Shown: positions 1 through 39,248 of the stretch, one piece after another
How positions within the stretch are numbered: position 1 is the stretch's first letter
Layout: each line of letters opens with the position of its first letter
Source of the DNA: Acidobacteriota bacterium
GTDB lineage: Bacteria > Acidobacteriota > Holophagae > Holophagales > Holophagaceae
DNA: 64,000 nucleotides
Assembly (NCBI GenBank): GCA_021794095.1
Contig: JAJYRN010000002.1
Location: 171,076 to 235,075, forward strand
Reading direction: 5' to 3'
Position numbers and translations under genes: made by a program
Notes under the pieces: generated by a model
What the model saw: only the letters and a program-made list of their open reading frames with translations
Databases searched by the model: none
What the model was told of the DNA's origin: nothing

Positions 1-487
1 GCACCCGACTGAGGGCGGAGAAGATCTCCTGCTCCGAGGAATTGAAGTCCACCACCCCGGCCGCCTGCTGGAGCGCGCCCTGCAGGGCCGTGGGGACCGT
101 CACGCCACCGTACTCGGCGAAGAGTTTGAGTTCCGTGACTTCCCGGTGGTAGGCGCCGTTCCGGTCGGGCAGGTTGGTGGCGCTCTCGTTCGAGACGGAG
201 CTGCCCGGGAACCCGCCGATGCCATCCTGCACCACCTGCTGGTCGATCAGGGACCAGGAAGTGTGGCGGTTGGGGAACAGCCGGTTGAACAACACGAAGT
301 GCGGATTCTGGACCGTGGCGATGGCAAGCTCGCTCTCCACGGATTCCACGCGCATCGCGCCACCGCCGGTGAGGGCGGTAAGCTGCGTCCCAGCCTGGGT
401 GCTGGAAAGGGCCTTGACGATATTGCGGATACGGGGATCCGCGCTTGACTCGGCCATCTGACCGAGGATGGAAACCACATCGAGCAT
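1..487 (-). CDS. Probable phage major capsid protein, N-terminal part (runs off the window)
   Basis: Reads leftward from an ATG at 487 with a GGAGG ribosome site just upstream; 162 codons are visible before the window edge. The protein begins MLDVVSILGQMAESS and contains HREVTELKLFAEYGG. No capsid motif is decisive. The call rests on position: it directly follows a prohead protease and an acidic scaffold gene on the same strand, the usual protease-scaffold-capsid order of tailed phages. It could instead be a decoration protein. Confidence 0.55.
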   Translation of the reverse strand, partial: MLDVVSILGQMAESSADPRIRNIVKALSSTQAGTQLTALTGGGAMRVESVESELAIATVQNPHFVLFNRLFPNRHTSWSLIDQQVVQDGIGGFPGSSVSNESATNLPDRNGAYHREVTELKLFAEYGGVTVPTALQGALQQAAGVVDFNSSEQEIFSALSRV

Positions 488-544
488 GTGGAACCTCCAA
501 GATTCGGCACAAAGCCGAGAGGGTGGTGGAAGAGGGGTTGGTTA

Positions 545-1332
<788 letters not shown>

Positions 1333-1336
<4 letters not shown>

Positions 1337-2184
1337 GGGCGCAGCATGGTGAGGAGCACGGCCATGGCGTGCTCGGGGGGGATGCCGCGCTGGCCGGCCA
1401 GGTCTAAGAACCCGTCCACACCTAGATCCGGCTGCGCGTCGTTGAGGGTTTGGAGGATGGCGATCACATCCGGATCACCAGCTTTTGGAGTCGGTAGCGT
1501 TTCGAGCGTGAGCCCGCGGCCAGGCACGAAGGAGCCGAGGGCTTCCTCCAGGTCCGCCCGAGAGGCAAACGCCTTGGCGAATGCACGCACCGGCATGGTC
1601 GTGACTGGACCAACGGTGTGGTTGACCGGGGTCCGCGACAAACCGATGGAATGCCACCGTATGCCCCGAATTTCCTGGGTATTTCGCCCGTCCTCGACGG
1701 TGGGCGCCTCGGCAAAGACATCGCCGGCGATGGAGGGGTACCAGACGGTCGGGGGAGAAGTCTGCAGGCTGTCCCAGAAGAGGTCGGCCGCCTCCGTCCA
1801 GCGGTTGCCGGAACCCCTGGCCGTGAAGATCGCAGCCTTCACCCAGACGGAATCGCCGTCCACGCGTGCGTCCAGCGGCTTCCCGATCTCATAAGCGTAG
1901 GGGTTGACCTTCTGGCCTCGAATTTCACCAAGGACCGAGGCGTGATCCAGATCAATGCGACCGTACTGGAGGAAGTAGGGGATTGACTTCGCCAAGGCCG
2001 AAAGGAGCACCTTCTCGCCCTGGAGGTCGCGGACCTCCGAAGAAGCCTGCATGTAGAGGATCCGCTGGCCGGCCTCTTCGGCCACCTGGGCCTTGAGCGC
2101 AACCCGCGAGAACTGGAAGGCGACAGGCAGTGCCGGAGCCCCGATGGGGGCTGCAATGGCAGCTGCAAGGCCGAGAACGCTCAT
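1333..2184 (-). CDS. Prohead protease-like protein
   Basis: 283 aa from the ATG at 2184; a GTG at 2256 would add 24 residues, and neither start has a strong ribosome site. The core (ILYMQASSEVRDLQGEKV, then DHASVLGEIRG, then GIRWHSIGLSRTPVNH) resembles XkdF / HK97-type prohead serine proteases, in which a His and a Ser in a GxSxxxxPxN-like segment form the active site. It lies just before the scaffold and capsid genes. Expected role is to trim scaffold and capsid during head maturation. The family assignment is by motif pattern and context. Confidence 0.7.
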
Positions 2185-2312
2185 GCCGCCGATTCTTTGC
2201 GGCAACAGCGCATTTCTACTGGCTACCTGTCCCCTGGGTGCCCCATGTTGAGCCACCAGGGACGCCGGAGGGAGGGACCGAAACCCAACCTTGGCGGTAG
2301 ACAGGAGCCAGG

Positions 2313-2555
2313 ATGTCCGCTCGTCAGACCAACCGGGCCACGGCCAATAGTGATGGGTCGGTAACCGTTGAACTCACGAGAGGGAAAATCTGTCTGGTGG
2401 ATGCCGACCAGTGGGAGGCGATCCGAATCACAAAAGACCGACTCACCAGATTCCTTGGGCACTTCGCAACCAAAGAGGAAGCCGCACGGGCTTACGACCG
2501 CGCGGCAATCGAGCTTCATGGGGAATTCGCCCGTCTCAACTTCCATACCCAATAA
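2313..2555 (+). pseudogene. Internally deleted AP2/HNH homing-endonuclease fragment (80 aa)
   Basis: The reading frame is open and has a good ribosome site (AGGAG 5 nt before ATG). Its start, [17 protein letters not shown], looks like the N-terminus of HNH-AP2 homing endonucleases, and its end, [19 protein letters not shown], is the C-terminal half of an AP2 DNA-binding domain. The HNH catalytic domain and the first AP2 strand, normally between them, are missing. It ends 10 bp before the 1303-aa gene. It is either a relic or a small DNA-binding protein kept for regulation. Confidence 0.65.
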
Positions 2556-2565
2556 GGAGATTCAA

Positions 2566-5500
2566 ATGATGACTCAGCGAGAAACCAGGGCGATCCTCAA
2601 AGCAATCGTGAAAGGCCATATTCGCGTGGTGAACGGCAAGACCGTTTACGTCCACGAATACGACAATCACAACCCCATTGGCAGACCGGCCGAGCTTCAC
2701 GAGCGCACGGTGGTTGGGAGACATAGGAGTGGCGCACACTACCTCCGCGCCACGGACGCCGAAGATGGCGCCCAGATCCAGGCAGCCGCCGACCGCCTCG
2801 GCATCAAGACCGAGAAACGCCGCGCGGGAGCCAACCACCTCGGCCGCGTCGGGGCCTACGATCACCACTTCGTCGAGAGCCCCGAGCATGCGCTGGCGAT
2901 CCACAACGAACTGAAGAAGCACGCGCCCGAGGTCGAGGGAGAGAGCCACCCTCCACTCACTGTCACCCGGGCAGACGGCAAGAAGGTCAATGTGTCCGTT
3001 CCGGCCAACACCAAGCGCGAGAGCCTCGGAGATGGCCGCAAGCGGCTCAATGCGGGGAAGGCGAGCAGAGATGCGGAGAACGCCACCAAGGACGCTGAAG
3101 GGAATGGGCCCAAAGGGCACGCCAAGGCCGCCGAGGCCCACAATAAGGCCGCCCAGCAATGGCACGATCTGGGAGAAGAGACTATCGCCAAGCGCCATCT
3201 GGATATCGCGGCCAGCCACGCCGAGGCAACCGCCGCACCAACCAAAAAGCAGGCACCTGTCGCGGGTGGCGATCCCAACTATCTGCTGAAGCAGGACTGG
3301 TACAACAAGGACGGCAAGAAGTCGGGCGGAAAGAGCGCCGAGCAACTCCGAAAGGAAGATCAGGGCCAGAAGGCCCACGGCAACGCCTCGGCCGGCGGGA
3401 ATCCTCCAAGCAAGAAACCCACACCCCAGGAACTGAGCAACATCGCCCACGAGGCCAGCCGAAAGACAGGAACGGGTGAGCGCACCCACGGGGACGCCGC
3501 TGCTGCCCACTACGAAGCATCCGAGGCCCACTTCGGAGCCGCCGCTGGCGCCGGAGAGCCACCAACCCAGTCCCCGAAGGTCGCCACGGGGGGCGAGGAC
3601 GAGAGCCCCAAAGCCAAGTCCGATAAGGCATGGGAAGCCACGACCCACGCCGCCAACAAGGTCAAGGGCGAGGAAGGGTATGCAGAGGGCCACGGAAGGG
3701 CTGCTGGCCTCCACGAAGCCGCTGCAGACATCCATGCCCTCGCCCACGATGCAGGAAAGGGCCGCGACCACTACTACGAAGCCAGTCGCCACTATGCCCA
3801 TGCCGAAAGCCACGCCGCCCGGACCAACACGCCCGAAGCACACGCTGAATACACATCAAAGGTCGCCGGGAAACTCGGCTTTCATGCCGACAGCCAGACC
3901 CTCGGCGACAACTACGAATCCCATGGTCGTCACGCTGAGAAACACCTGCTGGCCATCGAGGCGCATGGCCGTGCGAGGTCCGCACATCAGAAGGCTGCCG
4001 AAGCATCCTTCTACGACAACAAGCAGAGCTATGACGATCACATGAAGAAGGCCGACTTCCATCACGCAGAGGTCCAGCGCCATAACGACGAGATGGGCAA
4101 AGGGCACAAGGAGATCGAGACCAGGCGGGAATCCGCCTTCACCGCCAGCAAAACGGCCAACCAGGAGAATACCCCCGAGGCCCATGCGGCTGCTGCCGAG
4201 GCGCATCGACACGCGGCCAAGATCAACTACGACGAGGAAAGTCGAGGCGAACACGAACAGAAGGCCAAGGAGCACGAGAGGGAGGCCGAGAAGGCCAAAC
4301 CTGCCGAGGCCCCCCAGCACTCCCCCGCCATCGCCAAGGGCATCAAGCAGGGCGACTTCCGCCATATCCTGGACAGTGGCACGGCCCGGAAGGCAGCTGA
4401 TTGGGAGGAGACGAAGCAGGCGAGCAAGCCCGTCAAGGGGAACGAGGACGAGGTTGCGGCCCTGCGCCTGCTCCACGAGAAGCACGGTGCCCATCCCGTC
4501 CGAACCCCTGGCCGCGATGTGATCGACCACCCCGGGCGCGATGCCGAGGGCAAGCCGCCCATGGAATTCATCGCCAAGGCTCCCGACGGCAGCCACCACT
4601 ACGTCAACACCGAGGGCTACGGCTACCCCCGCTACACCCGGCACATCCCTGACGATGTGGCCCAGAAGGCGGGGATCACCCAGCCGAAGGCCGCGGACGA
4701 GCCAACCACGGTTCGCCCCGCCGACGAGCCCGAGGGCCACGCTCTCCCGCCCAAGCCCACCGCGCCGCCTCCCGTCGCCGGCCCCCGCCCAACCGAGGCC
4801 CAGAACTTGGGGAATGAGGCTGGTCAGACCCACCAGAGCGCCATGCACATGCGCGATGCCGCGCGAGGCGCAGCCCACGAGCCGAAGGCCATCCGGGCCA
4901 TGAACTCATCCAATGACGCCCACCTCAAAACCGTCCAAGCCAAGGACGCCGCCGGGCACGGTCGTGCCAGGGCCGCGCACATCGCCGCCATGCATGCGCA
5001 CGAGGAGGCGGCAGGACACGCCTACACCCCCTCTCTACGGAACGGCCACCAGAGCATTGCCGACGCCCACAGCAAGCATGCTGACGCCCACGCGAAACTG
5101 GCCGACTCCATGAAGCCAAAGGAAGAGTTTGTCCCACCCATGTATCAGAACCCACACACCAAGGAGGCTGACAACCTCGTGGCCCAGGGGATGACGGGCA
5201 AGGTCGCATCCGATGCCAGCCACCGAGCCATCCGGGCCACCGGAGACGCCGTGACCAGTGGGAAGAAGGAGGACCACGACGACGCTCGGGCATTCCATCG
5301 CCTCGCCGCGACCGAGCACCGGGAGCACGCGAAGCGTCAGGCCCCCGACTCCAAGGAAGCGGCCCACATGGAGAAGGTCGCCCAGGCCCACGACAAGGCC
5401 GCCGACTGGCACAACGAGCGCGGGAACACACTCGCCAAGCCCAGCGACTTCGCCACCCCGGAATCCACGGACGCCTTCTACCAGAAGCGCGATGGCGATG

Positions 5501-6477
5501 CCCACAGCCAAGCCAGGAAGGACACCGAAGCCATCGCGGCCGGAACCCACAAGCTCGAGGACGGGAAGGTGGTGCCGAAGGGGGATGAGCCAGCCAAGAA
5601 GGTCGAGATCGCCCCCATGCTCAAGGCTGACCACCCGGCCCGAAAGGCTTCCGCGGCCGCCGCCAAGGGAGAGAACATTCCCCACTCCTACCTCCAGGGC
5701 GGAGTGAAGCAGAAAACCACCACCACCAAGGCCACCAGGGACGCCCTACTCACCAGCCAGATCGCAGAGCACAGCGGCACCGCCGAGCACCACGAGATGG
5801 CCTCGAACGCCCACTGGGTCGCAGCTGGAGCCCACGAGCACGCCAAGGGCACCAAGAAGGGCGGCTTCTACTACAGCAGCCACAGCGCGGCCCAGGGGCA
5901 CCACTCCGACGCGGCGATCTACCACAGCCAGAAGGCGCAGGAACTGCGTGACAGCCAGGATGCATCACCCGAGCAGATGGCGGAGTACCGTGCCAACCAC
6001 CCTCTGATGGGTGGGAGGAAGAAAACGCCTGCCGAGATCGACGCCATGCTGGCCAAGGCGAAGGAGAAGGGCAAGGAAACCGCGAAGCGCGAAGCAGCGG
6101 AGGATCGACGCCCGGGAAAAGCTGAGGGGGCCTCGCAGGCCCCCGCCTCCCCCATCAAGGGCTCCGCGAACCACCTGACCGCAGCTGAAGCCGAAGCGAA
6201 CAACGCTGGTGGGGGAACCCTCGCCTACGACCGGAAGTGGGACAAGGACAAGGGCAGCCCGAGCACCGGGAAGGCCATGGACGCATCATCCCGCCTCATG
6301 CAGCAGGACGGCACCGCCGAGGCCCATGCCGAGGCCGCCAAGCACCACCGCTCCGCAGCCAGCGAGTACCGCCTCGGCCAGCACGACAAGAGCATCGGTG
6401 AACGGAAGGCCCGGCTCCGCGCCGCCTACCACGACGCCATGGCCGAACACCACGAGAATCATTCGGGAAAATCCTAG
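2566..6477 (+). CDS. 1303-aa His/Ala-rich helical phage protein (polyvalent/MuF-associated type)
   Basis: Start ATG 2566 has an AAGGAG site six bases upstream. The first ~100 residues carry a basic segment ending NGKTVYVHEYDN; the rest is many alpha-helical, low-hydrophobicity segments with A-H-E-A periodicity (for example AEAHRHAAKI, ADAHAKLADS), spaced by Pro/Lys linkers. I recognise no catalytic domain in this frame. Length, repetition and its place among polyvalent proteins suggest a protein packaged in or attached to the head, possibly a structural arm for the nuclease encoded in the -1 frame at its 3' end. It stops two codons after a slippery heptamer. Function is unknown. Confidence 0.75.
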   Translation: MMTQRETRAILKAIVKGHIRVVNGKTVYVHEYDNHNPIGRPAELHERTVVGRHRSGAHYLRATDAEDGAQIQAAADRLGIKTEKRRAGANHLGRVGAYDHHFVESPEHALAIHNELKKHAPEVEGESHPPLTVTRADGKKVNVSVPANTKRESLGDGRKRLNAGKASRDAENATKDAEGNGPKGHAKAAEAHNKAAQQWHDLGEETIAKRHLDIAASHAEATAAPTKKQAPVAGGDPNYLLKQDWYNKDGKKSGGKSAEQLRKEDQGQKAHGNASAGGNPPSKKPTPQELSNIAHEASRKTGTGERTHGDAAAAHYEASEAHFGAAAGAGEPPTQSPKVATGGEDESPKAKSDKAWEATTHAANKVKGEEGYAEGHGRAAGLHEAAADIHALAHDAGKGRDHYYEASRHYAHAESHAARTNTPEAHAEYTSKVAGKLGFHADSQTLGDNYESHGRHAEKHLLAIEAHGRARSAHQKAAEASFYDNKQSYDDHMKKADFHHAEVQRHNDEMGKGHKEIETRRESAFTASKTANQENTPEAHAAAAEAHRHAAKINYDEESRGEHEQKAKEHEREAEKAKPAEAPQHSPAIAKGIKQGDFRHILDSGTARKAADWEETKQASKPVKGNEDEVAALRLLHEKHGAHPVRTPGRDVIDHPGRDAEGKPPMEFIAKAPDGSHHYVNTEGYGYPRYTRHIPDDVAQKAGITQPKAADEPTTVRPADEPEGHALPPKPTAPPPVAGPRPTEAQNLGNEAGQTHQSAMHMRDAARGAAHEPKAIRAMNSSNDAHLKTVQAKDAAGHGRARAAHIAAMHAHEEAAGHAYTPSLRNGHQSIADAHSKHADAHAKLADSMKPKEEFVPPMYQNPHTKEADNLVAQGMTGKVASDASHRAIRATGDAVTSGKKEDHDDARAFHRLAATEHREHAKRQAPDSKEAAHMEKVAQAHDKAADWHNERGNTLAKPSDFATPESTDAFYQKRDGDAHSQARKDTEAIAAGTHKLEDGKVVPKGDEPAKKVEIAPMLKADHPARKASAAAAKGENIPHSYLQGGVKQKTTTTKATRDALLTSQIAEHSGTAEHHEMASNAHWVAAGAHEHAKGTKKGGFYYSSHSAAQGHHSDAAIYHSQKAQELRDSQDASPEQMAEYRANHPLMGGRKKTPAEIDAMLAKAKEKGKETAKREAAEDRRPGKAEGASQAPASPIKGSANHLTAAEAEANNAGGGTLAYDRKWDKDKGSPSTGKAMDASSRLMQQDGTAEAHAEAAKHHRSAASEYRLGQHDKSIGERKARLRAAYHDAMAEHHENHSGKS

Positions 6478-6509
6478 CGCCCGCCGCCCCCGCCACCCCG
6501 GACGGGCGC
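6465..6509 (+). promoter_or_regulatory. Candidate programmed -1 frameshift signal
   Basis: The heptamer GGGAAAA (6465-6471) is read in frame as G GGA AAA, matching the X XXY YYZ rule. Five bases later GCGCCCG (6477-6483) can pair with CGGGCGC (6503-6509) to form a 7-bp stem. The zero frame stops at 6475-6477. The -1 frame is open from there into the nuclease to 7223. The arrangement is that of known -1 frameshift sites. A sequencing or mutational indel in the G/A run is the alternative. Confidence 0.6.
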
Positions 6510-7223
6510 ACCACCACCAAGGCACTGCTGGAGAGGGTCCACGCCCTCTCTGGCGGGCTGCGGGCGCTAGTGAAGGCACAGCGGCACCAGCCGAAGGGTG
6601 CCGTGAACTCCAAGGGAGAGAGGATCGGAGGTCAGTTCGCATCACCCAACAAATTCGACTTCGTCCCAGCGCCAGGAGGCGGAAAAGATTGGTGGCACAT
6701 CGATGACGACACAGCCCGAAAAGCGGGGTTGGAGAAGGGAGGAGCCATCCGAGTCCAACACGGATTCCAAGACCCCTCCAAACCTAGCAAGGGATTTGGA
6801 ATCACCCACCTCGACTTCCGCCACAAGGACGACTACAAGGCCGCTGGATTCCAAGACGCTCGAGAGTTCCTGGCCCACATTCTCCAAGAAGGGTCTGAAG
6901 TCTGGTCCCATACAGAGCACGGGGAGAAGCTCCTTGTTATCGGGCGCGGGACCAAGGCGGGATTGGCATCCATCCAACTCCGACGCGAGCGAGGCGGATT
7001 CTTCACGGTGGTTACGGCATTCCCATTTCTTCCACCAACAAAATCAGGGCACATTCCCGACAACGCCAAGACTCGCCTCAAGTCATGGCAAGCCCCGGGT
7101 GGGAGCCTGAATCCCCACCACCCAACCCGTGTAACCGGGTGCCTCAAAGACTCCACCTCTGGCCAAACCACGGGGCCATGGGAGCAGTCAAGCATTGAGG
7201 CCGGGACTGCAAGACAAGGTTGA
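6471..7223 (+). CDS. BECR-fold (barnase-EndoU-ColicinE5/D-RelE) nuclease domain, probably made as a -1 frameshift fusion
   Basis: In the -1 frame, 250 codons follow the slippery site. A linker (ALLERVHALSGGLRALVK, then NSKGERIGGQFAS) leads to a compact domain: GITHLDFRHKDDY, then EFLAHILQEGSEV, then GGFFTVVTAFPF. This order (an H-RH motif, a helix, then a strand ending in TAF/TSY) is typical of phage BECR nucleases described in polyvalent proteins. Without frameshifting the only plausible start is GTG 6570, which has no ribosome site. A nuclease on a packaged protein could attack host RNA or DNA on entry (inference). The domain call is by motif. Confidence 0.6.
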   Translation: MLAPAAPATPDGRTTTKALLERVHALSGGLRALVKAQRHQPKGAVNSKGERIGGQFASPNKFDFVPAPGGGKDWWHIDDDTARKAGLEKGGAIRVQHGFQDPSKPSKGFGITHLDFRHKDDYKAAGFQDAREFLAHILQEGSEVWSHTEHGEKLLVIGRGTKAGLASIQLRRERGGFFTVVTAFPFLPPTKSGHIPDNAKTRLKSWQAPGGSLNPHHPTRVTGCLKDSTSGQTTGPWEQSSIEAGTARQG

Positions 7224-7252
7224 TCCCTTCCTCACCCTCGCGCAACCCCCTT
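7216..7252 (+). repeat. Leader repeat, copy 1 (upstream of the DUF6582-like gene)
   Basis: The segment starting AAGGTTGATCCCTTCC and ending near CCCCCTT lies 28 bp before ATG 7280. A near copy occurs at 9118-9153 before the helicase gene. The two copies share most positions over about 37 bp. Confidence 0.7.
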
Positions 7253-7279: not shown

Positions 7280-8251
7280 ATGTCCGATCTCGCCACCCTC
7301 AACCCCTACGACCCCCAGGCCCTCGGCAACGTGGCCCTGGCGGCCATCACAGCGCTGGCCCAGGCCAAGGGGCGGTCCACCAACTACCTCACCCCCCTGG
7401 CCGCCATGCCGGAGGCCGAGGACGCCCGCCAGGCCCTCAAGGCCGCCATCGAGGCCGGCTGCCCGAAGGAGCACCTCCGCAATCTCATGAAGGCCGCCTT
7501 CGGCATGGACCTCGCCGGGCAGGCCAATGCCACCATCGGCGAGGCCGCCCTCTTCCCCGCCATGGAGCCGGAGATGGCCCAGGCCAGCCTCATCCCCGAC
7601 CACGAGGAGGGCCTGGAGCGCGCCCTGGCCAAGGCCATCCAGATCGCCACGACGCCCCGCGCCGTGGAGAAGGCCCAGGTCGGCGCCTACACCCGCACCC
7701 ACAACGGAAAGGTGATCCAGGTCCACGAATACCAGACCCGCCGCCAGGGCAGCATGAACGCCACCAAGGCCGCCCACGCATCCTCCGACGAGGCCCTCAA
7801 GAGTCGGAAGCCGGAGGATCACCAGAAGGCCAGCGCGGCCCACCTCGAGGCCCTGCGCCAGCACACCGAGGCCCACGAACTCAGCCCCGCCGATGTGGCC
7901 CAGGACCACAAGGAACTCATGGACCACCACCGCGCCGCGGCCCGGTGGCACTCCGACAAGGCCAAGGGCGCCACGGCAGCCTACGGCACCGAGAAGGTGG
8001 AGGCCCACAGGGGCGCCGCCAAGTCCTGGGACGAAGGGCGCCGGGAGGAACTGAAGGCCGGGAAGATCAAGGGCGCCTTCGCGGGGCCGCACGAGAGCTT
8101 CCCCATCGCCGGGCCCGAGGACGTCACCCACGCCTGGGATCTGGCCGGCCACGCCGAGAACCCCCAGGAGATCCGCGAGAACATCCGCCGGATCGCCAAG
8201 GATCACGGCTGGCAGCATGCGCTCCCTGGATCCGCCAAGCCGAACGCATGA
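7280..8251 (+). CDS. Phage protein with DUF6582-like C-terminal segment
   Basis: 323 aa; start ATG 7280 with AGGAG at spacing 6. Three parts are visible: an Ala-rich helical first ~125 residues; a middle with the shared tag-like motif VGAYTRTHNGKVIQVHEY (about residue 135) and His/Ala-rich helices like those of the 1303-aa protein; and a C-terminal ~50 residues (GPEDVTHAWDLAGHAENP, then IRENIRRIAKDHGW) like DUF6582, a small domain found in phage head/MuF regions. No enzyme motif is seen. It is probably a virion or internal protein. Confidence 0.7.
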   Translation: MSDLATLNPYDPQALGNVALAAITALAQAKGRSTNYLTPLAAMPEAEDARQALKAAIEAGCPKEHLRNLMKAAFGMDLAGQANATIGEAALFPAMEPEMAQASLIPDHEEGLERALAKAIQIATTPRAVEKAQVGAYTRTHNGKVIQVHEYQTRRQGSMNATKAAHASSDEALKSRKPEDHQKASAAHLEALRQHTEAHELSPADVAQDHKELMDHHRAAARWHSDKAKGATAAYGTEKVEAHRGAAKSWDEGRREELKAGKIKGAFAGPHESFPIAGPEDVTHAWDLAGHAENPQEIRENIRRIAKDHGWQHALPGSAKPNA

Positions 8252-8305: not shown

Positions 8306-8410
8306 ATGAAACGCGCCGCCGGAACCATCCTCGTCTGCGTCGGGTTGGCCCTCTGCCTCCCCGGCGTCCTCGTCGTCATGGCCGGCCAGTGGCTCCAGGA
8401 GCGCGCATGA
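8306..8410 (+). CDS. Small single-span membrane protein (34 aa)
   Basis: ATG 8306 has a GGGGAGGA ribosome site. The peptide is short: a KR start, then a hydrophobic stretch (TILVCVGLALCLPGVLVVM) and a short polar tail. Its stop overlaps the next ATG (ATGA at 8407), so the two are probably translationally coupled. No function is recognised. Confidence 0.6.
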   Translation: MKRAAGTILVCVGLALCLPGVLVVMAGQWLQERA

Positions 8411-9045
8411 ACCTCGATGCCCTCTTCACCCTGGCCGAGCACCTTGCCCGCGACCCCGAGGCGGCACGGGCCATCCAGAAGGCGCAGGCCGAGGAGCGCC
8501 CCATCGAGAAGTCGGACTACGACCAGAACCGGCGGGGTCGGATCGTCCACGTCCACAACAAGGTGCTTCCGCGAGGGCAGGAACAACTACCCGCCGGGGT
8601 CGTACGGGGGGGGAAGGCTGAGATCGCTGCATTACTCAACAATGCGGCCAATGGGTTCACGGCAGTGCGATTCGGGGATGTGGATACAAATCAAGCAAGG
8701 CGCATCCATAACGCTACTGGATTCGAGGTGGAGGGATTCCACCACAGGATCGATTTGGCTGCCATCAACCACGTAAGGAAGCACCATGGTCCCGGCCGCG
8801 AAGATGACCCGGCCCTGGAACCGATCACGGACGACGACATCCTCGCCATCCAGTCCATTGTTGCGAATCCAGACCACATCGAGCGGGGAAAGGACCAAGA
8901 CACAGGACTGCCCAGCATCATCTACACGAAGAAGATGGGTGACACATTCGTGATGGTCGAGGAAATCCGCTACGGCAGGCGAGAACTGGCCCTCAAAACA
9001 CTTATGAAGCGCCGAGCAAAAAACGACCCGGGGGGGAGGCCATGA
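8407..9045 (+). CDS. Phage BECR-like (PBECR-type) nuclease protein
   Basis: 212 aa from ATG 8407, overlapping the preceding stop. After a short helical start comes a variant of the shared tag (NRRGRIVHVHNKV, about residue 45). The second half reads INHVRKHHGPGRED, then PITDDDILAIQSIVANPDHI, then DTFVMVEEIRYGRRELALKT. Conserved H-x-x-x-H near the start of the domain, a 'pdxI' helix and a terminal T-x-x-K strand are the layout of phage barnase-EndoU-ColicinE5/D-RelE-like nucleases. Expected activity is on RNA. It sits between other polyvalent-type genes, suggesting delivery with phage DNA (inference). Confidence 0.65.
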   Translation: MNLDALFTLAEHLARDPEAARAIQKAQAEERPIEKSDYDQNRRGRIVHVHNKVLPRGQEQLPAGVVRGGKAEIAALLNNAANGFTAVRFGDVDTNQARRIHNATGFEVEGFHHRIDLAAINHVRKHHGPGREDDPALEPITDDDILAIQSIVANPDHIERGKDQDTGLPSIIYTKKMGDTFVMVEEIRYGRRELALKTLMKRRAKNDPGGRP

Positions 9046-9117
9046 CGCGAGTCTGTGCCTTTCGGCCCACCTCATACGCCCAAAGCGTTTCGGCTGGGGC
9101 TCCCCACCGGGCACTTA

Positions 9118-9153
9118 AAGGTTGATCCCTTCCACCCCCACCCGCAACCCCCT
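9118..9153 (+). repeat. Leader repeat, copy 2 (upstream of the giant helicase gene)
   Basis: Near copy of the segment at 7216-7252, again starting AAGGTTGATCCCTTCC and ending in a C-rich run before the gene start (16 bp before ATG 9169). It may be a duplicated 5' leader carrying a shared promoter or translation element. Confidence 0.7.
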
Positions 9154-9168
9154 TCTCCAGAGCACCCC

Positions 9169-12100
9169 ATGACCCAGCCCATCACATTCTCCGACCTGGC
9201 CGGCAACGTCCTCGACTGGATCCCGGTGGGATGGGACGCCCTCATCACGCCCAAGCCCCTCACCACCCCCGACCTCCACGCCCGCGCCCAATCGGCCCAG
9301 CCCCCCACCCGCATCCGCAAGGACCAGGCCGTCCCCAGCTACCCCAGGGCCCGCGTCGTCTTCCACGGCATCCCCATCGTCATCGAGAACCCGAAGGGCA
9401 GCGTCCGAAGCGGCATCGGCCAGAACGGAAATCGGTGGCGGACGGTCATGGCCCACGACTACGGGTTCATCGCCCGGACCTTCGGGGCGGACGGAGACGG
9501 GGTGGACGCCTTCATGGGCGATGACCTCAAGAGCGAGGCCGTGTTCGTGATCCATCAGGTGGATCCAGCGACCGGAGAATACGACGAGGACAAGGTGATG
9601 CTGGGCTTCCCCGACGAAGCCTCGGCCACGGCGGCCTACCTCGCCAACTACGAGCGCGGGTGGAAGGGCCTCGGGTCCATCCAGAAAATGAGGGTTGGCG
9701 ACCTCAAGGCATGGCTGCGGGAGGGCCAGGAGGGGCGCCCCATCCAGAAATCCGAACCGGAGCCAGATGGCAGCCGATGGGTCACCGTCCACCATGGGAG
9801 CGGGGAGGGCCAGCCGATCAAGGTCATGCCAGCCAAGGGCCACAAGGGCGTCTGGAGAGTAGTTGGCGGGGCCGGGGGGGCCCTCAACGGTCTCCGCCTA
9901 CACGGGCTCAAGAGCCCGGAGGAATACCAGAAAGAGGCCCGGGAGAAGGCCAAAGAGAAGCGCGCCGCGGAGCGAGAGGCCCTGTCCAAGATGACCCCCG
10001 AGGAACGCGCCCAATACAAAGCCGAGAAGGCCGAGGGGAAAGAGAAGCGCCGCCAGGCGGAGGATGCCTTCGCAGACAAGGTGCTTGGTCCCGAGCAGAA
10101 GGGGCTCCTGGGAGAGGACGGGGAGCCGGAACCAGACGACCCAAAGGCCCAGGCCGAGGCGCGCCGGGAGCGCCTGAAAGCGGCCCATGCGGCCGTGCGG
10201 GAGGCCGAGCGCAAACTGGTGCTCGACGTGGACGCCCGGGTCCAGGCTGGAATTCCGGTCATCGGGGGATATGGCCCCCACGGGCTGGACATTGACGACC
10301 TCGTCTCCGAGGCGGACCCCAAGGGCCCTGGCTACCAGCGGGCCCTGGCCAAGCGGGCCGAGATGGCCGGCCTCAGTGCCGACAAACTGGCGGAGCAGGT
10401 GGCCGACATCAAGGAGCGCCGTGCGGCGGCAGAGGGACGGACCATCCCAGAGCCTTCCGGGCGGGAGGAGGGGGAAGGGAGGACGGAAGAACCAGCCCCC
10501 GAAGGCCAGCAGACCCCCCTGCCGGGCATGGGAGGAGCCGTGCCCAAGGATGACCACCAGGCCACCCAAGCGGCCAATGTGGAGGCCCACAAGGCCAGCA
10601 AGGAGCTGCAGGCCCACAAGGCCGCGGCCGTCCGCGAGGCAGTGAAGGAGGCCGTCCAGAAGAACGAGCGCCTCGCCACGCTCCTCCAAGCTCGCCGAGA
10701 ACTGCGCGAAGCCTACAAGGCCAGCACCCCACAGGCCAAAGAGCGAGTGTTCGAAGAGGGTTATCAGATGCCCATCGAGGAAGTGGCCGAGGCCGCCGCC
10801 CAGGACGTCTACCAGCAGATGCTCACCAAGAACATGGTCGGGTTCCTGCAGGAGGTCGGGGAAGCCTACCCGGAAGGTGAGCCCCTGGACCGGTTCGACC
10901 CCCAGCCGATGGACGGCCTCCATGCCACCCGCGGGGCGGCCGCCTTCGATGCCCTCCACGAGGTCGCCCTGGCGGCCGTGGGCCAGGGAATGATCGAGCG
11001 CGATGTGGTGGAGGCCATAGGCCCGGAGGGCGCCGCCCAGCTGGTTGCCCGTGGCATTCGGCGGGAATTCAGCCCCGACGACCAAGCCGCCATCATTGAG
11101 GCCCTGGAGCATCACCACTTGCAGGAGCAGGAGGAACTCCCGAAGGTGATGGACGAGGCCCAGGCCCTGCGCGCCGAAGCCAACCGGCTGCGGGCGGATC
11201 TCGCGGAGAACCCCCGGGATCTCTCCCTGGCAGTCGAGATGCAGAAGAACCGCCTAGACATCCTGAAGGAAGCCAGGCGCACCCTGGGAGGCACCCTGGG
11301 ACGCATCGAGGCCCGGGCAGCTCTGATCGCCTCGCTGCAGGCGGGGAAGGATCAGGAGAACCTCACTCTCCCCCTCGGGAAGATGACTCCCGAGAAGGCC
11401 GTCCAGACCGCCGCGGCCCTGGGCCTCAAGGAAGGCGACTACAAGATCGACCACGAGGCCGGCGAAGCCGTGATCCACCTCAACGGCCAGGGGCAGGACC
11501 GCCTCGTGGCACCCATCGACACCGCCGCCCTCCACGAGCGCGACCTCGCCCTGGCCATAAAGGGTGGACAGCTGGACCGCCCGGGATACCTTCCCGCCGG
11601 GTTCGCGGATCGCACCGACAGCCGCTATGACCACCCTATCCAGGAAGCCCCCCAGTTCCGCCAGCGCCTCCAGATCCAGGACGACATGGGCCCCGAGCAG
11701 GTGCGGGACGCCCTCATGGATCATGTGGGCAGCCGCCTCGCAGACGGGGAGCGCCCGGCAGACATCCTCAACGACGTCATGTCGGGCACCTTCATGGCGT
11801 CCAGCGTGCCAGAGGGGGCCCTCAAGTCCTATGTGAACGCCCTGTCGGAGGTCTTCCCCCTGCAGGAGCATGTCAAAGACAAGGAGGGGAACCCGATCTA
11901 CCAGAAGGCAGAGGATGGGACCGAGTACCCAAAAATGCGCCTGCGGACCATGGACGAACTGGCAGGCCACTTCGACCAGACGCTGGACCGGTTCCTGGAG
12001 AAGCAGGGCGCAGCCGCGGACACGGCCCTCGCCCGGCAGTGGGTGGATGCCGACAGCCCCGACTTTGCAGAGGCCGTCCACCGGGCACTGGCGGAGGATC

Positions 12101-15100
12101 CCCGAACCACGGCGGCCTTCACCCCCGCCGGCGAACTCAGCGCCGAGCAGCAGGCCCACATCCGCGACTACTTCTACCGGGAGGTGAAGGGAATCGACCC
12201 GGATGCCGCCCCGGCAGGTGTCAAGGAATCCTTGACTACTCCAGTCGGTGATAAAACATCACCGACTGCCCAGCCGCAGACCAAGGAGGACAAGGCCCAG
12301 GCCCGCGCCATGGAGATCGCCGGCCCCGAGCCCGAACAGTGGGAAGTGGACATGTTCGGGGAGCAAACCCACTCCCCGGTCTGGGTGGACTGGAAGTCCC
12401 GCTACGACGCGGCGAAGGAAGCCGTGGAAAACGGCCAGGACGCCGACATGGAGGCCAATGCATCGACCTACGTCGCCCCGAGCGGCCAGAAAGTCACAGC
12501 CGCGGCCGTCGCCACTGCCCCAGAGGACAGCCCGTGGGCGCTCTACGTCCAGGCTATGGGAGGGCTCAAGCAGGCCCAGGCTGCCGTCCAGGACCAGATG
12601 AAGGGGGCCTTCGCAGAGAGGTTCAAGGCCCACCACGAGCGCCTCACAGGGAAGGGCCTGAAGCTGGGCAAGACCGAGCTGGCCCACCGCGACCGGTTCC
12701 TGGGAGCCACCATGGACCCCGAGCGCCTGGCGGCCTTGCGGAAGAACCAGTCCAGCCTCGCCACCAGCCTCCGGAAGCGCGACAGCCGCGGCCGCCTCCT
12801 GGAGGGGGGGGTGGCCGATCAGATGGACGAGGCCCGCCGGAAGCGCGAGGCCGCTCTGCAGGGCCAAAGCGCCCTCTTCGAGAAGGAAGAGGAGCCGGGC
12901 CTCCGCCAGACCCTCGGGCCCACGCTCGAGGCCCAGATCCGGGCCCACATCCCCGGCCTCGCCGCAGCATTCCAGGGCACCCGTCGGGCCGTGGACGTGC
13001 ATGAAGGTGTCCGGATGGACGGTGACCGCGTGGGCCAGCAGCGGGCCATCCAGGCCATCACGAAACTCAAGCGCATCGGGCTCTTCCTGGGAGCCGGGTG
13101 CGTCTACGGCGGGACAGAACTGAGATGCGAGAAACGCGGTATCACACGCTCGTTCTATGACTGGTGGATATCCGGAGAAACGCCTTGGGTCCAGACGATC
13201 CAACCGGATGGGACCACCGGCATCCGCAAATCGTCCCATGTGTTCATCAAGGGGATGGGGAGGATGGTCCGGATAGTCTGCTCAAATGGGACATCCATGG
13301 TCGTCACACCGGGGCATAGGTTCCTCGGTGAGTTTGGATGGATCGCCGCAGGGCTTATTCAACCGGGGACCAGACTGCTCGAATCCGGTGAGCCATCCGA
13401 AACAGAGAATGACCCGCTACTAGATCTCGTCACGCAAGCGTGCCGTCTGGATTCCGTTTGCGCCGGAGAGCGCGAAGGCGTTGCTTCTCCCGCTCTTCAT
13501 CCGTCCACACACGCCGAGGAATGGGGGAATTCTTCCACCGCTCCTTCATCTGCACACGCGCTCTTTCACGCCGCTCATCGGTCCATTCTGGATGGCACTC
13601 TGGACGGCCCCCATTCTCACGCATTCGAGCCAGCCCTTGCGGAGAATGTCTTGGAACGCGGCCTAAAAGTTCTTCTCGAAGATGGTCTGAATTCGCTGCA
13701 TACAGAGACAGATTGTCTGGATGGTTGTTCCCTCGATTTGAATCCAAGTGATGAACAACCTCATCGGGAAGAAGATGGCGCCCCAGTTTCTGCTCCATCA
13801 CAAGGCGGTGCTCACGCACATATCCATTTGAATTTGCATGAGGATGATCCGGACAGTGGACCAGGACATACCCGGATTTATCGACCGTCCTTCCGCCACG
13901 CCAGCATGGATTTTTTGACCCGAAACCTGGCCGTGCAGGACGACGAGGAATTCCGGCCTGTTCAAGCCGAGCCCCAACCGAACCACCAGTCAACCCGAAG
14001 CGCTTCCCAATCTCGGAAGTGCTCAACTCCTCGTCTACATACAAAGCGCGGAGAACATCGACAGGGATCACAACCTTGGGGGGCCTTCCCATACACCACC
14101 GTCCTTTCAGTCGAGGAAGCAGGAGAACACATCATCTTCGATATCTCAGTCCCGGTTGAGCATAACTATACATCAAGTGGCCTGATTAGTCATAATTCGG
14201 GCAAGACGCCCGTCATGCTGGGAGCCCTCACGGAACTCCAGAAGGCCGGCAAGGTGCAGAAGTCCATCCTGGCGGTCCCGTCCATCGTGCAGAAGCAATT
14301 CGGAGCCGAGGCCATCCGGTTCATCGACCCAAACAGTGGGTTCCATGTCCACGCCCAGCCCGGGGAGAGTTTCGAGGAGCGGCTCCGGGCCTACCAGGAT
14401 CCCGACCAGCATGCCGTGGTGATCACCCACCAGGCACTGCGGGACGACACCCTGCGGATCCTCCAGAACCACCTGGGCATGGACCCGCAGCAGACCCACG
14501 AATGGGCCATGAGCGTGCCGAAGGACAAGCTGGCCGCCACCGTGAAGGAAGCCTTCGCCAAGCACGGCATCAACTTCCAGGCTCTCATGGTGGACGAGGC
14601 CCATGGCGCCCTGGACCGGGAAGGGAAGGCCGACAGCACCTTCTCCAGGATCCTGAACGCCCACAGCCGGAACGTCAGCCACATGGTCATGGCCACTGGG
14701 AACCCCATCAAAAATGACACCAGCGAGGCGTGGTCGGACCTCCACCACCTGGATCCCTACCGCTACCCCGAGGAGAGCAAGGACGAATTCATGCGCCGAT
14801 ATGGGACGGACGCAGACCTGTCCCGCCGGAGCCTCGCCCAGCAGCTGACGAGATACTGGGTGAACGCCCGCCTCAAGCTGCCCACCGAGGCCAACCGCCT
14901 GGACGACAAGATCCCCCTCGAGGCCCACCAGCATGCGGCGATCGAGAAAGTGGAAAGGGCCGCAGGCAAGCTCCGCACCGGAGCGGGAGGGGACGAGCGC
15001 ATGAAGTGGGCCAAGGAACTGGCCCCCGAAGCCTTCGAAGGGCACCCCGAAAGCGACCACGAGGCCATCGCCAAGATGGTGGCCCGCAGCGTCGGAACCT

Positions 15101-15675
15101 TCCGAGAGGCGGCCATGAACCGGGCGATCAACCTGGACCCCGCCGGCGGCAAGATGAAACGAGCCGTGGGCATCGCCAAGGATGCGGCCGCAGAGGGAAA
15201 GCTCGTCGTGATGTTCGCCAGGAACCTCGCCGCGGTGGAGGCCCTCCACAAGAACCTCGAGGCCGCGGGCCTGAAGGTGGCCAGCCTGACCGGCAAAGAC
15301 TCCTCCAAGAGCAAAGGTGAGAAGCTGGCTGCCTACCAGCGGGGCGAGCACCAAGTCATCGTCATGAGCGATGCTGGAAGCACCGGGGCCAACCTGCAGA
15401 TGGGCAAGGTCATGGTCCACATTGACCAACCCATGACGGCCATGACCATGCAGCAGCGGGACGCCCGGATCCACCGCCTGGGCCAGAAGGACAACGTGGA
15501 GATCCACCACCTGCTGGCCGACCACGAATGGGAACGCGCCAATGTGGAGCGGGTGAAGCGGAAGGACAGCCTCGGAGCCGTGTACCAGGCCCCGGAGGGA
15601 TACCTGGACGATTCGGGCATCGCCGGCACCCTCCGCGAGATCCGGGCCCGGCGGAATCAGGAGCGTGTGGCATGA
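9169..15675 (+). CDS. Giant polyvalent protein: pyrophosphatase-like domain plus SNF2-type helicase, with intein
   Basis: 2168-aa precursor from ATG 9169 (an in-frame ATG at 9055 is less likely). Residues ~90-185 contain AHDYGFIARTFGADGDGVDA, then DEDKVMLGF, matching the inorganic-pyrophosphatase-like domain of phage polyvalent proteins. A tag-like PIQKSEPEPDGSRWVTVHH follows, then a long charged, coiled-coil-rich middle. A helicase begins near residue 1300: Walker A GAG/SGKT (split by an intein, residues 1311-1676), Walker B VDEAH (~1807), a GSTGANLQMGK motif and a QQRDARIHRLGQ motif VI typical of SNF2/RapA proteins. Splicing would leave ~1802 aa. Such proteins are thought to enter the cell with phage DNA. 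DNA remodelling or anti-defence is plausible but inferred. Confidence 0.85.
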   Translation: MTQPITFSDLAGNVLDWIPVGWDALITPKPLTTPDLHARAQSAQPPTRIRKDQAVPSYPRARVVFHGIPIVIENPKGSVRSGIGQNGNRWRTVMAHDYGFIARTFGADGDGVDAFMGDDLKSEAVFVIHQVDPATGEYDEDKVMLGFPDEASATAAYLANYERGWKGLGSIQKMRVGDLKAWLREGQEGRPIQKSEPEPDGSRWVTVHHGSGEGQPIKVMPAKGHKGVWRVVGGAGGALNGLRLHGLKSPEEYQKEAREKAKEKRAAEREALSKMTPEERAQYKAEKAEGKEKRRQAEDAFADKVLGPEQKGLLGEDGEPEPDDPKAQAEARRERLKAAHAAVREAERKLVLDVDARVQAGIPVIGGYGPHGLDIDDLVSEADPKGPGYQRALAKRAEMAGLSADKLAEQVADIKERRAAAEGRTIPEPSGREEGEGRTEEPAPEGQQTPLPGMGGAVPKDDHQATQAANVEAHKASKELQAHKAAAVREAVKEAVQKNERLATLLQARRELREAYKASTPQAKERVFEEGYQMPIEEVAEAAAQDVYQQMLTKNMVGFLQEVGEAYPEGEPLDRFDPQPMDGLHATRGAAAFDALHEVALAAVGQGMIERDVVEAIGPEGAAQLVARGIRREFSPDDQAAIIEALEHHHLQEQEELPKVMDEAQALRAEANRLRADLAENPRDLSLAVEMQKNRLDILKEARRTLGGTLGRIEARAALIASLQAGKDQENLTLPLGKMTPEKAVQTAAALGLKEGDYKIDHEAGEAVIHLNGQGQDRLVAPIDTAALHERDLALAIKGGQLDRPGYLPAGFADRTDSRYDHPIQEAPQFRQRLQIQDDMGPEQVRDALMDHVGSRLADGERPADILNDVMSGTFMASSVPEGALKSYVNALSEVFPLQEHVKDKEGNPIYQKAEDGTEYPKMRLRTMDELAGHFDQTLDRFLEKQGAAADTALARQWVDADSPDFAEAVHRALAEDPRTTAAFTPAGELSAEQQAHIRDYFYREVKGIDPDAAPAGVKESLTTPVGDKTSPTAQPQTKEDKAQARAMEIAGPEPEQWEVDMFGEQTHSPVWVDWKSRYDAAKEAVENGQDADMEANASTYVAPSGQKVTAAAVATAPEDSPWALYVQAMGGLKQAQAAVQDQMKGAFAERFKAHHERLTGKGLKLGKTELAHRDRFLGATMDPERLAALRKNQSSLATSLRKRDSRGRLLEGGVADQMDEARRKREAALQGQSALFEKEEEPGLRQTLGPTLEAQIRAHIPGLAAAFQGTRRAVDVHEGVRMDGDRVGQQRAIQAITKLKRIGLFLGAGCVYGGTELRCEKRGITRSFYDWWISGETPWVQTIQPDGTTGIRKSSHVFIKGMGRMVRIVCSNGTSMVVTPGHRFLGEFGWIAAGLIQPGTRLLESGEPSETENDPLLDLVTQACRLDSVCAGEREGVASPALHPSTHAEEWGNSSTAPSSAHALFHAAHRSILDGTLDGPHSHAFEPALAENVLERGLKVLLEDGLNSLHTETDCLDGCSLDLNPSDEQPHREEDGAPVSAPSQGGAHAHIHLNLHEDDPDSGPGHTRIYRPSFRHASMDFLTRNLAVQDDEEFRPVQAEPQPNHQSTRSASQSRKCSTPRLHTKRGEHRQGSQPWGAFPYTTVLSVEEAGEHIIFDISVPVEHNYTSSGLISHNSGKTPVMLGALTELQKAGKVQKSILAVPSIVQKQFGAEAIRFIDPNSGFHVHAQPGESFEERLRAYQDPDQHAVVITHQALRDDTLRILQNHLGMDPQQTHEWAMSVPKDKLAATVKEAFAKHGINFQALMVDEAHGALDREGKADSTFSRILNAHSRNVSHMVMATGNPIKNDTSEAWSDLHHLDPYRYPEESKDEFMRRYGTDADLSRRSLAQQLTRYWVNARLKLPTEANRLDDKIPLEAHQHAAIEKVERAAGKLRTGAGGDERMKWAKELAPEAFEGHPESDHEAIAKMVARSVGTFREAAMNRAINLDPAGGKMKRAVGIAKDAAAEGKLVVMFARNLAAVEALHKNLEAAGLKVASLTGKDSSKSKGEKLAAYQRGEHQVIVMSDAGSTGANLQMGKVMVHIDQPMTAMTMQQRDARIHRLGQKDNVEIHHLLADHEWERANVERVKRKDSLGAVYQAPEGYLDDSGIAGTLREIRARRNQERVA
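13099..14196 (+). other. Intein inside the helicase Walker A motif
   Basis: In-frame insertion of 366 codons. It begins with Cys (CVYGGTELRCEKRG), has a block-B-like segment (NGTSMVVTPGHRFLG) and ends with a block F/G segment (HIIFDISVPVEHNYTSSG, then LISHN) followed by extein Ser. Removing it joins GAG to SGKT, restoring a perfect P-loop GAGSGKT. The recognisable splicing parts are about 107 aa at the N-terminus and 34 aa at the C-terminus, the size of a mini-intein. The middle ~220 codons are simply the reverse reading of an antisense HNH gene. Confidence 0.92.
13430..14092 (-). CDS. HNH homing endonuclease encoded antisense within the intein
   Basis: 220 aa on the strand opposite the intein, fully inside it. 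ATG 14092 has AAAGGA upstream. Residues ~10-50 form an HTH (LSTSEIGKRFGLTGGSVGAR). The catalytic region is YVREHRLVMEQKLGRHLLPD, then EVVHHLDSNRGNNHPDNLSL, a complete HNH_3-type motif with the HH pair and Asn residues. The C-terminus is basic and helical. It occupies the place where inteins normally carry their endonuclease domain, but reversed and as a separate gene, while the sense frame stays open. It presumably cuts intein-free alleles of the helicase gene to spread the intein. Confidence 0.88.
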   Translation of the reverse strand: MGRPPKVVIPVDVLRALYVDEELSTSEIGKRFGLTGGSVGARLEQAGIPRRPARPGFGSKNPCWRGGRTVDKSGYVLVHCPDHPHANSNGYVREHRLVMEQKLGRHLLPDEVVHHLDSNRGNNHPDNLSLYAANSDHLREELLGRVPRHSPQGLARMRENGGRPECHPEWTDERRERARVQMKERWKNSPIPRRVWTDEEREKQRLRALRRKRNPDGTLA

Positions 15676-37389: not shown

Positions 37390-37490
37390 TGACGCCACCT
37401 ATTCCGAAACTCGCGGCCGTGATAGAAGCCCACCCACCATCCAAAAACGAAGGCCAGGAGCAGATTCAGGATGAGCACACCAGGACGCAT
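37386..37490 (-). CDS. Tiny membrane protein (34 aa)
   Basis: ATG 37490 overlaps the methyltransferase stop. One membrane span (GVLILNLLLAFVFGWWVG) and a basic tail. Overlaps its neighbour by four bases, forming a pair of tiny membrane genes. Confidence 0.5.
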   Translation of the reverse strand: MRPGVLILNLLLAFVFGWWVGFYHGREFRNRWRQ

Positions 37491-38839
37491 CAGGCCCCCT
37501 TCCCGGGCTTCACCCGGATGGGCGGCTGCCCCGTGAGGGCCTCCCACCGGAGCGCGATCACATCGCAGAACTTTGGGTCAAGCTCGACCAGGGCCGCACG
37601 CCGCCGAGCAAGGTGGCAGGCCACAAGGGTGGATCCAGACCCCCCAAAGCCATCCGCCACGAGATCTCCAGGCACGGAGGACAGCTTGAGGGCCTTGTCG
37701 AGCAGGGCGACGGGCTTCTGGGTGGGGTGGACGAGGTTCTTCGCTCCGTCCCGACCTACCTCCCAGACAGTCGTCTGGGTGCGCCCGCCCTTCCAGGTCG
37801 GCTTGGCCTCGGGATCAGTCGCGTAGGCCCCCTGAATGTGGTCCTCCACCACGAGCCCGCGCTGCAGGACGTCCACAGCCGCCCCACCATCCGGGTTGTC
37901 GGCCAGGAAGGCGTTCTCGTGGCGCCGGCGGAATTCGTCCATCCCAAGCCCCGCGGAGGGCTTGACCCAGATGATCTGGGACTTGACCCGCAGGCCCGCG
38001 GCCTCCAGGGCGTTCTGGAACTCCCGCTGCCGGTGGTAGGAGTGCCACACGTACCACGCTGCCTGCTTCTTTGACGCCGCCCGGATGCAGGCGAAGGCCC
38101 GGACGAGCAACTCCTCGAGGTTGGCCCGGTCCAGGGCGTCGTTCTTGATCTTGCCGCCCGCGGTGCCCTTGGCGTTGGACGAGTAGTCCATGCCGTAGGG
38201 TGGATCAGTGAGCACCAGATCAGGCTCCTCCCCGGCAAGGAGGGCCCTCCAGACGAATGGATCCGTGCTGTCGCCACAGATCAGGCGGTGGGGCCCAAGG
38301 AGCAGGATCTCGCCCGGCACGGTCTCAGGGGTCTCTGGGCAGGGGGGTGCGGCGTCGGGATCCGCCTTGGGATCGGTCGCCCCCCCGCCCGGGAGGGCAC
38401 CGAACAGATCCTCGATGGCCTCCAGGGTGAAGCCGGTGGCTTCGAGGTCGAAAGAGCCGTTGTCCAGGCCGGCCAAGATCTCCTGCAGGGAGGTCAAGGA
38501 CCACCCAGAAAGATCGGTGAGCCGGTTGTCGGCCACGGTGTAGGCCGTCGCCCCCTGGTCGTCCAGGTCCGCGACAACCACCGGGATGAGCGCCTCCCCA
38601 TGCCCCGCATCGAGGAGGGCCTGGAGCCGACCATGCCCCGCCAGCAGGCGGTTCGTGCCACGCTGGACGACCGGGAGGGCCACCAGGCCATGGGAAGCAA
38701 TGCTCTTCTGAATGAGCCGAAGCTGCTCGGCCGTATGCTCCCGCGGGTTCCCGGCCCAGGGGCGAAGATCCTTCACGGCCATCTGGACTACCTCTGGCAC
38801 ACGGAGGGATGGGGCGGGTGCGCTCTTTTTAGACGGCAC
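37490..38839 (-). CDS. ParB-like / DNA methyltransferase fusion
   Basis: 449 aa; start GTG 38839 preceded by TGGAG, overlapping the upstream gene. N-terminal ParB/Srx-like domain: LRPWAGNPREHT, then LLAGHGRLQALLDAGH. C-terminal N4/N6-amino methyltransferase: catalytic VLTDPPYGMDYS and, late in the chain, DGFGGSGSTLVA for S-adenosylmethionine, an order typical of the beta class. Phages use such fusions to modify DNA against restriction. Target site unknown. Confidence 0.85.
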   Translation of the reverse strand: MPSKKSAPAPSLRVPEVVQMAVKDLRPWAGNPREHTAEQLRLIQKSIASHGLVALPVVQRGTNRLLAGHGRLQALLDAGHGEALIPVVVADLDDQGATAYTVADNRLTDLSGWSLTSLQEILAGLDNGSFDLEATGFTLEAIEDLFGALPGGGATDPKADPDAAPPCPETPETVPGEILLLGPHRLICGDSTDPFVWRALLAGEEPDLVLTDPPYGMDYSSNAKGTAGGKIKNDALDRANLEELLVRAFACIRAASKKQAAWYVWHSYHRQREFQNALEAAGLRVKSQIIWVKPSAGLGMDEFRRRHENAFLADNPDGGAAVDVLQRGLVVEDHIQGAYATDPEAKPTWKGGRTQTTVWEVGRDGAKNLVHPTQKPVALLDKALKLSSVPGDLVADGFGGSGSTLVACHLARRRAALVELDPKFCDVIALRWEALTGQPPIRVKPGKGA

Positions 38840-39248
38840 GATCAACTCCAGAGGCGAGGCCACGGGCCCGGGACGCATAACCCCAGGCATGGCGGCGGAA
38901 GAGGCCAAAGCTCCACGGTTTGAGGCCACGGGCCAGGGCCATCTCCCGGAAAATGGGATAGCTGTAGAGGAGTGGGGTGTCGGGCCCCATCGCCCGCAAG
39001 GTCCAGCGCGCCACTCGGTTCGCCAGAACCCGGTTGGCATGGGAGGACGCAATGTGCAGCACATGGGCCCGGCTCAAGAAAATGAACCGCTTCGTTTTCG
39101 ACTGGGCAGCCCGCCGCGCTATGGCATCCAGGAGCACATGCTGGTCGGGGCGCTGCCCTGTGACGTCTTCGATGACGTCCACGAGGCGCCCCAAACATAC
39201 GTAGATGCTCTGGTCAATGTCCAACGGCGAATCCCAGCGACCGGGCAC
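38829..39248 (-). CDS. Hypothetical basic phage protein (139 aa)
   Basis: GTG 39248 without a good ribosome site; a TAG precedes it directly. Contains DVIEDVTGQRPDQHVLLDAI and a basic C-terminal half (ANRVLANRVARWTLRAMG). Looks like real coding sequence but no family recognised. Confidence 0.5.
   Translation of the reverse strand: MPGRWDSPLDIDQSIYVCLGRLVDVIEDVTGQRPDQHVLLDAIARRAAQSKTKRFIFLSRAHVLHIASSHANRVLANRVARWTLRAMGPDTPLLYSYPIFREMALARGLKPWSFGLFRRHAWGYASRARGLASGVDRAV

Follow-up and report, generated by a model that had tools for sequence, protein, structure and literature searches.

The heptamer of the lambda G/GT frameshift is G_GGA_AAG. Frameshifted structural genes are also found in gene 10 of phages T7 and T3 (10A/10B) and in Lactobacillus phage A2 and Listeria phages A118, A500 and PSA, where Ig-like extensions are added, and a review suggests that frameshifting rescues domains which recombination has placed out of frame (PMC5009743). 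In T7/T3, A2 and A118/A500/PSA a frameshift near the 3′-end of a structural gene gives a minor, C-terminally extended product, and in lambda G/GT a −1 frameshift near the stop joins two overlapping late ORFs (PMC5009743); the locus described here would resemble both arrangements. The PBECR domains of polyvalent proteins are another of the closest known systems, and they resemble the present cassette in being BECR-type predicted RNases that lie by virion genes and are mosaic and swappable (Iyer et al. 2017, PMC5512222).

The DNA analysed here, hereafter the window, is a stretch of 64,000 nucleotides which sits in a 342-kb contig of a 3.0-Mb genome of an Acidobacteriota bacterium; one relative with a match is a metagenome-assembled genome of Acidobacteria. 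The first 16 kb of the window lie in the late region of a tailed phage, in which the minus-strand head genes are followed by a plus-strand cassette and then by the portal and terminase genes (Table 1). The gene for the long protein P0002 lies among these late virion genes, between the capsid, scaffold-like and protease genes and those for portal and terminase. An AAGGAG ribosome site precedes its ATG at 2566, giving 1303 aa (ATG 2569 would give 1302 aa), and the N-terminus of the protein is MMTQRETRAILKAIVKGHIRVVNGKTVYVHEYDNH. Orthologues of P0002 in related phages or prophages vary from 569 to 1613 aa, and no enzymatic domain was recognised in P0002, which had no Pfam or PHROG match. Just 3′ of the cassette, a 2161-aa protein combines InPase with SNF2/helicase domains, as is typical of the polyvalent proteins described in PMC5512222. 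Judging from this gene context, P0002 is probably packaged and injected. The InPase-SNF2 protein (9055-15675, + strand) also carries an apparent intein at the SNF2 P-loop (GAG/CVYGG...ISHN/SGKTP), for which the Pfam Intein_splicing profile gave E 6e-5, below its curated cut-off; the orthologues in two other loci, L053 and L016, have an uninterrupted GAGSGKT at this position. Elsewhere in the window (37490-39064, − strand), a ParB-like nuclease was found fused to a DNA methyltransferase.

Table 1. Features of the late region and of the frameshift junction in the window.
Feature	Position	Strand	Remarks
Major capsid protein, scaffold-like gene, head maturation protease	1-2256	-	Late region
0-frame ORF P0002	2566-6477	+	1303 aa, His/Ala-rich repeats; adjoins head genes
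Slippery heptamer G_GGA_AAA	6465-6471	+	Letters GGGAAAA, canonical phase
−1 frame extension P0001	6471-7223	+	250 aa; leader helix, linker KAQRHQPKGAVNSKGERIGGQF, putative PBECR-type nuclease domain
0-frame TAG stop	6475-6477	+	One sense codon (TCC) after heptamer
Putative stimulatory stem-loop	6477-6509	+	GC-rich; starts 5 nt 3′ of heptamer
Second strong hairpin in −1 leader	6521-6559	+	Would bury CTG codons 6525/6528
Putative BECR-type core	6774-7040	+	ITHLDFRH, helix EFLAHIL, four predicted strands, VVTAFP
−1 junction in predicted fusion protein			HSGK followed directly by ILAPAAPATPDGR
Next late-region gene	7280-8251	+	Own ATG, AGGAG ribosome site
Independent PBECR3 nuclease gene	8409-9045	+	Own ATG, AGGAG site, leader MNLDALFTLAEHLARDPEAARAIQKAQ

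A preliminary description of this DNA had proposed a programmed −1 frameshift that appends a nuclease to P0002. The 3′-end of the 0 frame reads TCG GGA AAA TCC TAG, so the heptamer is indeed in frame, although it stands one codon before the stop and not two as first described. The proposed 7-bp stem five bases downstream was recovered, and after a bulge it continues for 3 more base pairs (6477-6486 with 6499-6509); just 0.6% of the sites in that region reach its predicted stability, −19.2 kcal/mol for 36 nt. Between a stop at 6399 and position 7223 the −1 frame stays open, and its reported lack of a good start was borne out, the first ATG, GTG or TTG being the GTG at 6570, 31 codons past the 0-frame stop. 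The long product, earlier put at ~1552 aa, was computed as a −1 fusion of 1552 aa.

Programmed −1 frameshifting is in our view quite probably the best explanation of this junction, on the strength of its sequence signals, of their recurrence at other junctions and of selection on the −1 frame. Most ribosomes would end at TAG 6475 and yield the 1303-aa protein, and a fraction, slowed by the hairpin, would slip back one base on G_GGA_AAA, with tRNA-Gly re-pairing from GGA to GGG and tRNA-Lys from AAA to AAA; the slipped ribosomes would then read on beyond the TAG in the −1 frame and produce the 1552-aa fusion with a C-terminal nuclease-like effector domain. The effector would thus ride on a long polyvalent-type repeat protein encoded among the head genes, and frameshifting would hold its copy number low and keep it unavailable as a free protein. 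The frameshift efficiency, packaging, nuclease activity and control of the dose are what we infer.

Slippage during transcription was set aside, as a run of four A is short for it. A sequencing or assembly error was considered because of the short G/A run at the junction, and an extra base in other reads, or a relative with both parts in one continuous frame, had been named beforehand as evidence against frameshifting. The same junction sequence was present in a separate assembly, G027, with 1 mismatch in 1050 nt and no extra base; the downstream half was found in a further genome, G043, and equivalent junctions in other contigs. Such an error is therefore extremely improbable. Among the relatives that were found, some had the frameshift form and the others a separate gene, and none had both parts in one frame.

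The copy in G027 (locus L007) belongs to a near-identical 5-kb block, about 2250-7250 of the window, with few mismatches, whereas the flank upstream of the block differs by ~10%. The gene pair was therefore recently exchanged as a unit, so that G027 checks the sequence and adds nothing on conservation over time. A comparison of the gene at 8409 with its counterpart in L007 (10409-11062) revealed that the N-terminal leader is kept and that the nuclease is PBECR3 in the window and PBECR1 in L007, which indicates that effector domains are swapped in this region while the leaders before them stay constant. L007 also contains, at 11604-12401, just upstream of the polyvalent gene, a free-standing gene resembling HNH/NUMOD4 homing endonucleases that is absent from the window. 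The G043 copy (L008) begins inside the heptamer, at a contig edge, and has ATG where the window has CTA (6567); its match ends abruptly at position 428, before transposase-like genes. On reading the ORFs, the genes at 428-3309 of L008 (G043 contig 158) look like an IS66-type element.

The BECR-nuclease label of the preliminary description turned out to be plausible and weaker than stated. P0001 gave no family above cut-off; its core was colinear with the Pfam profile PBECR2 over 77 positions at 12.7 bits, below the gathering score of 27.1. In a BECR fold a helix precedes four or five strands, and the active site has His and Ser/Thr residues; in P0001, candidate His and Thr active-site residues lie within ITHLDFRH, FLAHIL and VVTAFP. 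The structure model consists of a helix and then four strands, at low confidence (pLDDT 37), and a fold search with this low-confidence model found no PDB match; models were of low confidence for both nuclease families described here, and PDB fold searches with them were uninformative. The best support comes from context: the linker of P0001 resembles a linker that leads into true PBECR1 domains in L007 and L058, in genes that start at an ATG of their own, and because the linker elsewhere precedes such domains, P0001 is itself likely to be a nuclease. Searches of viral contigs, phage records and plasmids gave nothing usable as a homologue of P0001 or P0002. A Rhizobium plasmid match, which falls in an annotated inositol monophosphatase gene, and weak phylum-level genome matches with E about 0.005 were taken as chance. 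The nuclease profile A2 had 0 matches in 396 genomes of the phylum, in a search run without a positive control.

Relatives were sought by the N-terminus of P0002 in genomes of the same family and by the head protease in IMG/VR, and two further junctions were obtained, both in orthologues of the next late gene (7280-8251). In L028, from another genus, this gene ends GAG GGA AAA GCA AAG GGG GAC TGA, with the heptamer GGGAAAA (L028:5069-5075) 4 codons before TGA, and the −1 frame extends 203 codons beyond this stop, into an ORF that is nuclease-like. In L044 it ends TCG GGA AAA GCC TGA, with the heptamer 1 codon before the stop, and the −1 frame continues for 208 codons into an orthologue of the L028 ORF, 58% identical to it. 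No relationship was detectable between P0001 and this second ORF. The L028 ORF scored 15.8 bits with PBECR1, under the gathering score of 27.6, and the L044 and L053 ORFs had no PBECR1 profile match. At each of the three junctions the heptamer has the X_XXY_YYZ form in the 0 frame, inside the overlap of two ORFs. A stimulatory structure is expected about 5-9 nt 3′ of a heptamer, and the stems were observed at 5 nt (window), 6 nt (L044) and 4 nt (L028, a little short of that range), those of L028 and L044 being equalled in strength by 2.8% and 2.1% of sites in their own regions. The recurrence of heptamer and hairpin in other phages, with a different nuclease-like ORF behind them, leaves the −1 frameshift reading well supported; the site is conserved at three junctions in different phages, a small sample (n = 3) from one phage group.

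The signal was also considered against chance. GGGAAAA alone is not rare in the window (5 seen, 7.5 expected). In long ORFs of these phages the in-frame frequency of G_GGA_AAA is 8.7 per 100,000 codons, from which about 4 genes in 10,000 should have one at most 5 codons away from a stop. A survey of 260 kb gave 14 −1 extensions that lack a start and span 150 codons or more, many of them spurious products of GC-rich sequence; only 3 of the 14 have a slippery heptamer close to the stop, and these are the three nuclease junctions.

Ranked next after programmed −1 frameshifting, and so its main rival, is a separate nuclease gene with a non-standard start, translationally coupled to the upstream stop; we consider it unlikely. 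Its start would be a CTG overlapping TGA in L028 and L044, and CTG 6525/6528 or GTG 6570 in the window. Such a gene does exist in a fourth phage, L053, where the ORF of L028 and L044 is a separate gene whose own ATG overlaps the upstream stop as TGATG. At the CTGA overlaps of L028 and L044 the purine stretches upstream are weak (−4.4 and −4.3 kcal/mol). GTG 6570 in the window has a ribosome-site match of −5.3 kcal/mol, and in G043 there is an ATG at 6567. In the window, however, the stop overlap is CTAG, which gives CTA and no start, and the CTG codons at 6525 and 6528 lie inside a very stable hairpin, and their ribosome-site matches are slight or absent (0.7 and −2.8). Initiation at GTG would leave out conserved protein sequence, namely the leader in the window and the AIT..AHFSHDG block of L028 and L044. 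It would also leave unexplained why G_GGA_AAA and a hairpin occur at all three junctions and at no other startless ones.

Codon-level selection upstream of any standard start further backs programmed frameshifting. In the −1 ORFs of L028 and L044 no standard start occurs until a GTG, which lies 36 (L028) and 41 (L044) codons beyond the stop. In the 19 codons before it (RAIT..AHFSHDG.GGLHP), the differences between L028 and L044 are synonymous in 8 codons and non-synonymous in 3, and most fall on the third position (2/3/11 by codon position), which means that protein upstream of any standard start is under selection. The window ORF compared with L008 had 27 synonymous and 21 non-synonymous codons among 109 (positions 13/10/35), and by this comparison of sequences it is under purifying selection. 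A silent remnant, left by a fusion that had broken or by decay of a nuclease gene with its own start, would account for a startless ORF, for the lack of an in-frame relative among those found and for the interrupted copy in G043. Such a remnant is very improbable, given the purifying selection on the −1 frame, an ORF that is intact over 250 codons and the recurrence of the signal at two other junctions. The separate gene of L053 retains the conserved block of L028 and L044; having its own ATG, it indicates that a start codon was replaced or lost and that the frameshift form stands in its place.

The descent of the junctions was examined by pairwise local alignment of their DNA, as a joint alignment mis-registered L028. 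The window and L044 junctions align over ~55 nt of heptamer and hairpin, though the genes on both sides differ, with a score reached by 9 of 2000 random pairs (better than 99.5%); the orthologous junctions of L028 and L044 have little in common beyond GGGAAAAGC. These alignments fit a shared recoding element that may have moved, and we do not claim independent origin; the window and L044 junctions may share descent and are therefore not fully independent. Since similar effectors are encoded in relatives by separate genes that have start codons of their own, frameshifting would be one of two interchangeable attachment modes. We put forward, tentatively and with rather more doubt than conviction, a transferable recoding element of ~50 nt (heptamer plus hairpin), common to non-orthologous junctions, which would attach interchangeable nuclease effectors to injected carriers at a fixed low dose and alternate with separately started genes.

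The preliminary description called frameshift dosing of a nuclease a novel design. Both devices are already known singly, frameshift-extended late phage proteins from PMC5009743 and PBECR effectors of polyvalent proteins from PMC5512222. What is probably new is their combination, in which programmed −1 frameshifting would append swappable effector domains to polyvalent-type late proteins in tailed phages and prophages of Acidobacteria; in a literature search of open-licence papers, no nuclease joined to a protein through frameshifting was described. Frameshifting is known for setting ratios of assembly proteins and for coat decorations; if the present reading is true, it would here cap the dose of a toxin-like enzyme on its carrier. 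Gene finders would then miss the fusion, and the nuclease would either be listed as a separate, truncated ORF or go unannotated; startless −1 ORFs behind G_GGA_AAA and a hairpin in late phage genes would offer a search rule for hidden effectors.

In T7/T3, A2 and the Listeria phages, coat or tail proteins gain an Ig-like domain or another surface domain, whereas here a long polyvalent-type repeat protein would gain a nuclease-like effector. The lambda G/GT product serves as an assembly chaperone and is not part of mature virions (PMC5009743), in contrast to the effector domain that would be appended here. The PBECR domains of PMC5512222, a paper in whose text the word 'frameshift' is absent, are fused in frame or stand solo, unlike the nuclease-like domain of the window, which would be joined to its carrier by a −1 frameshift.
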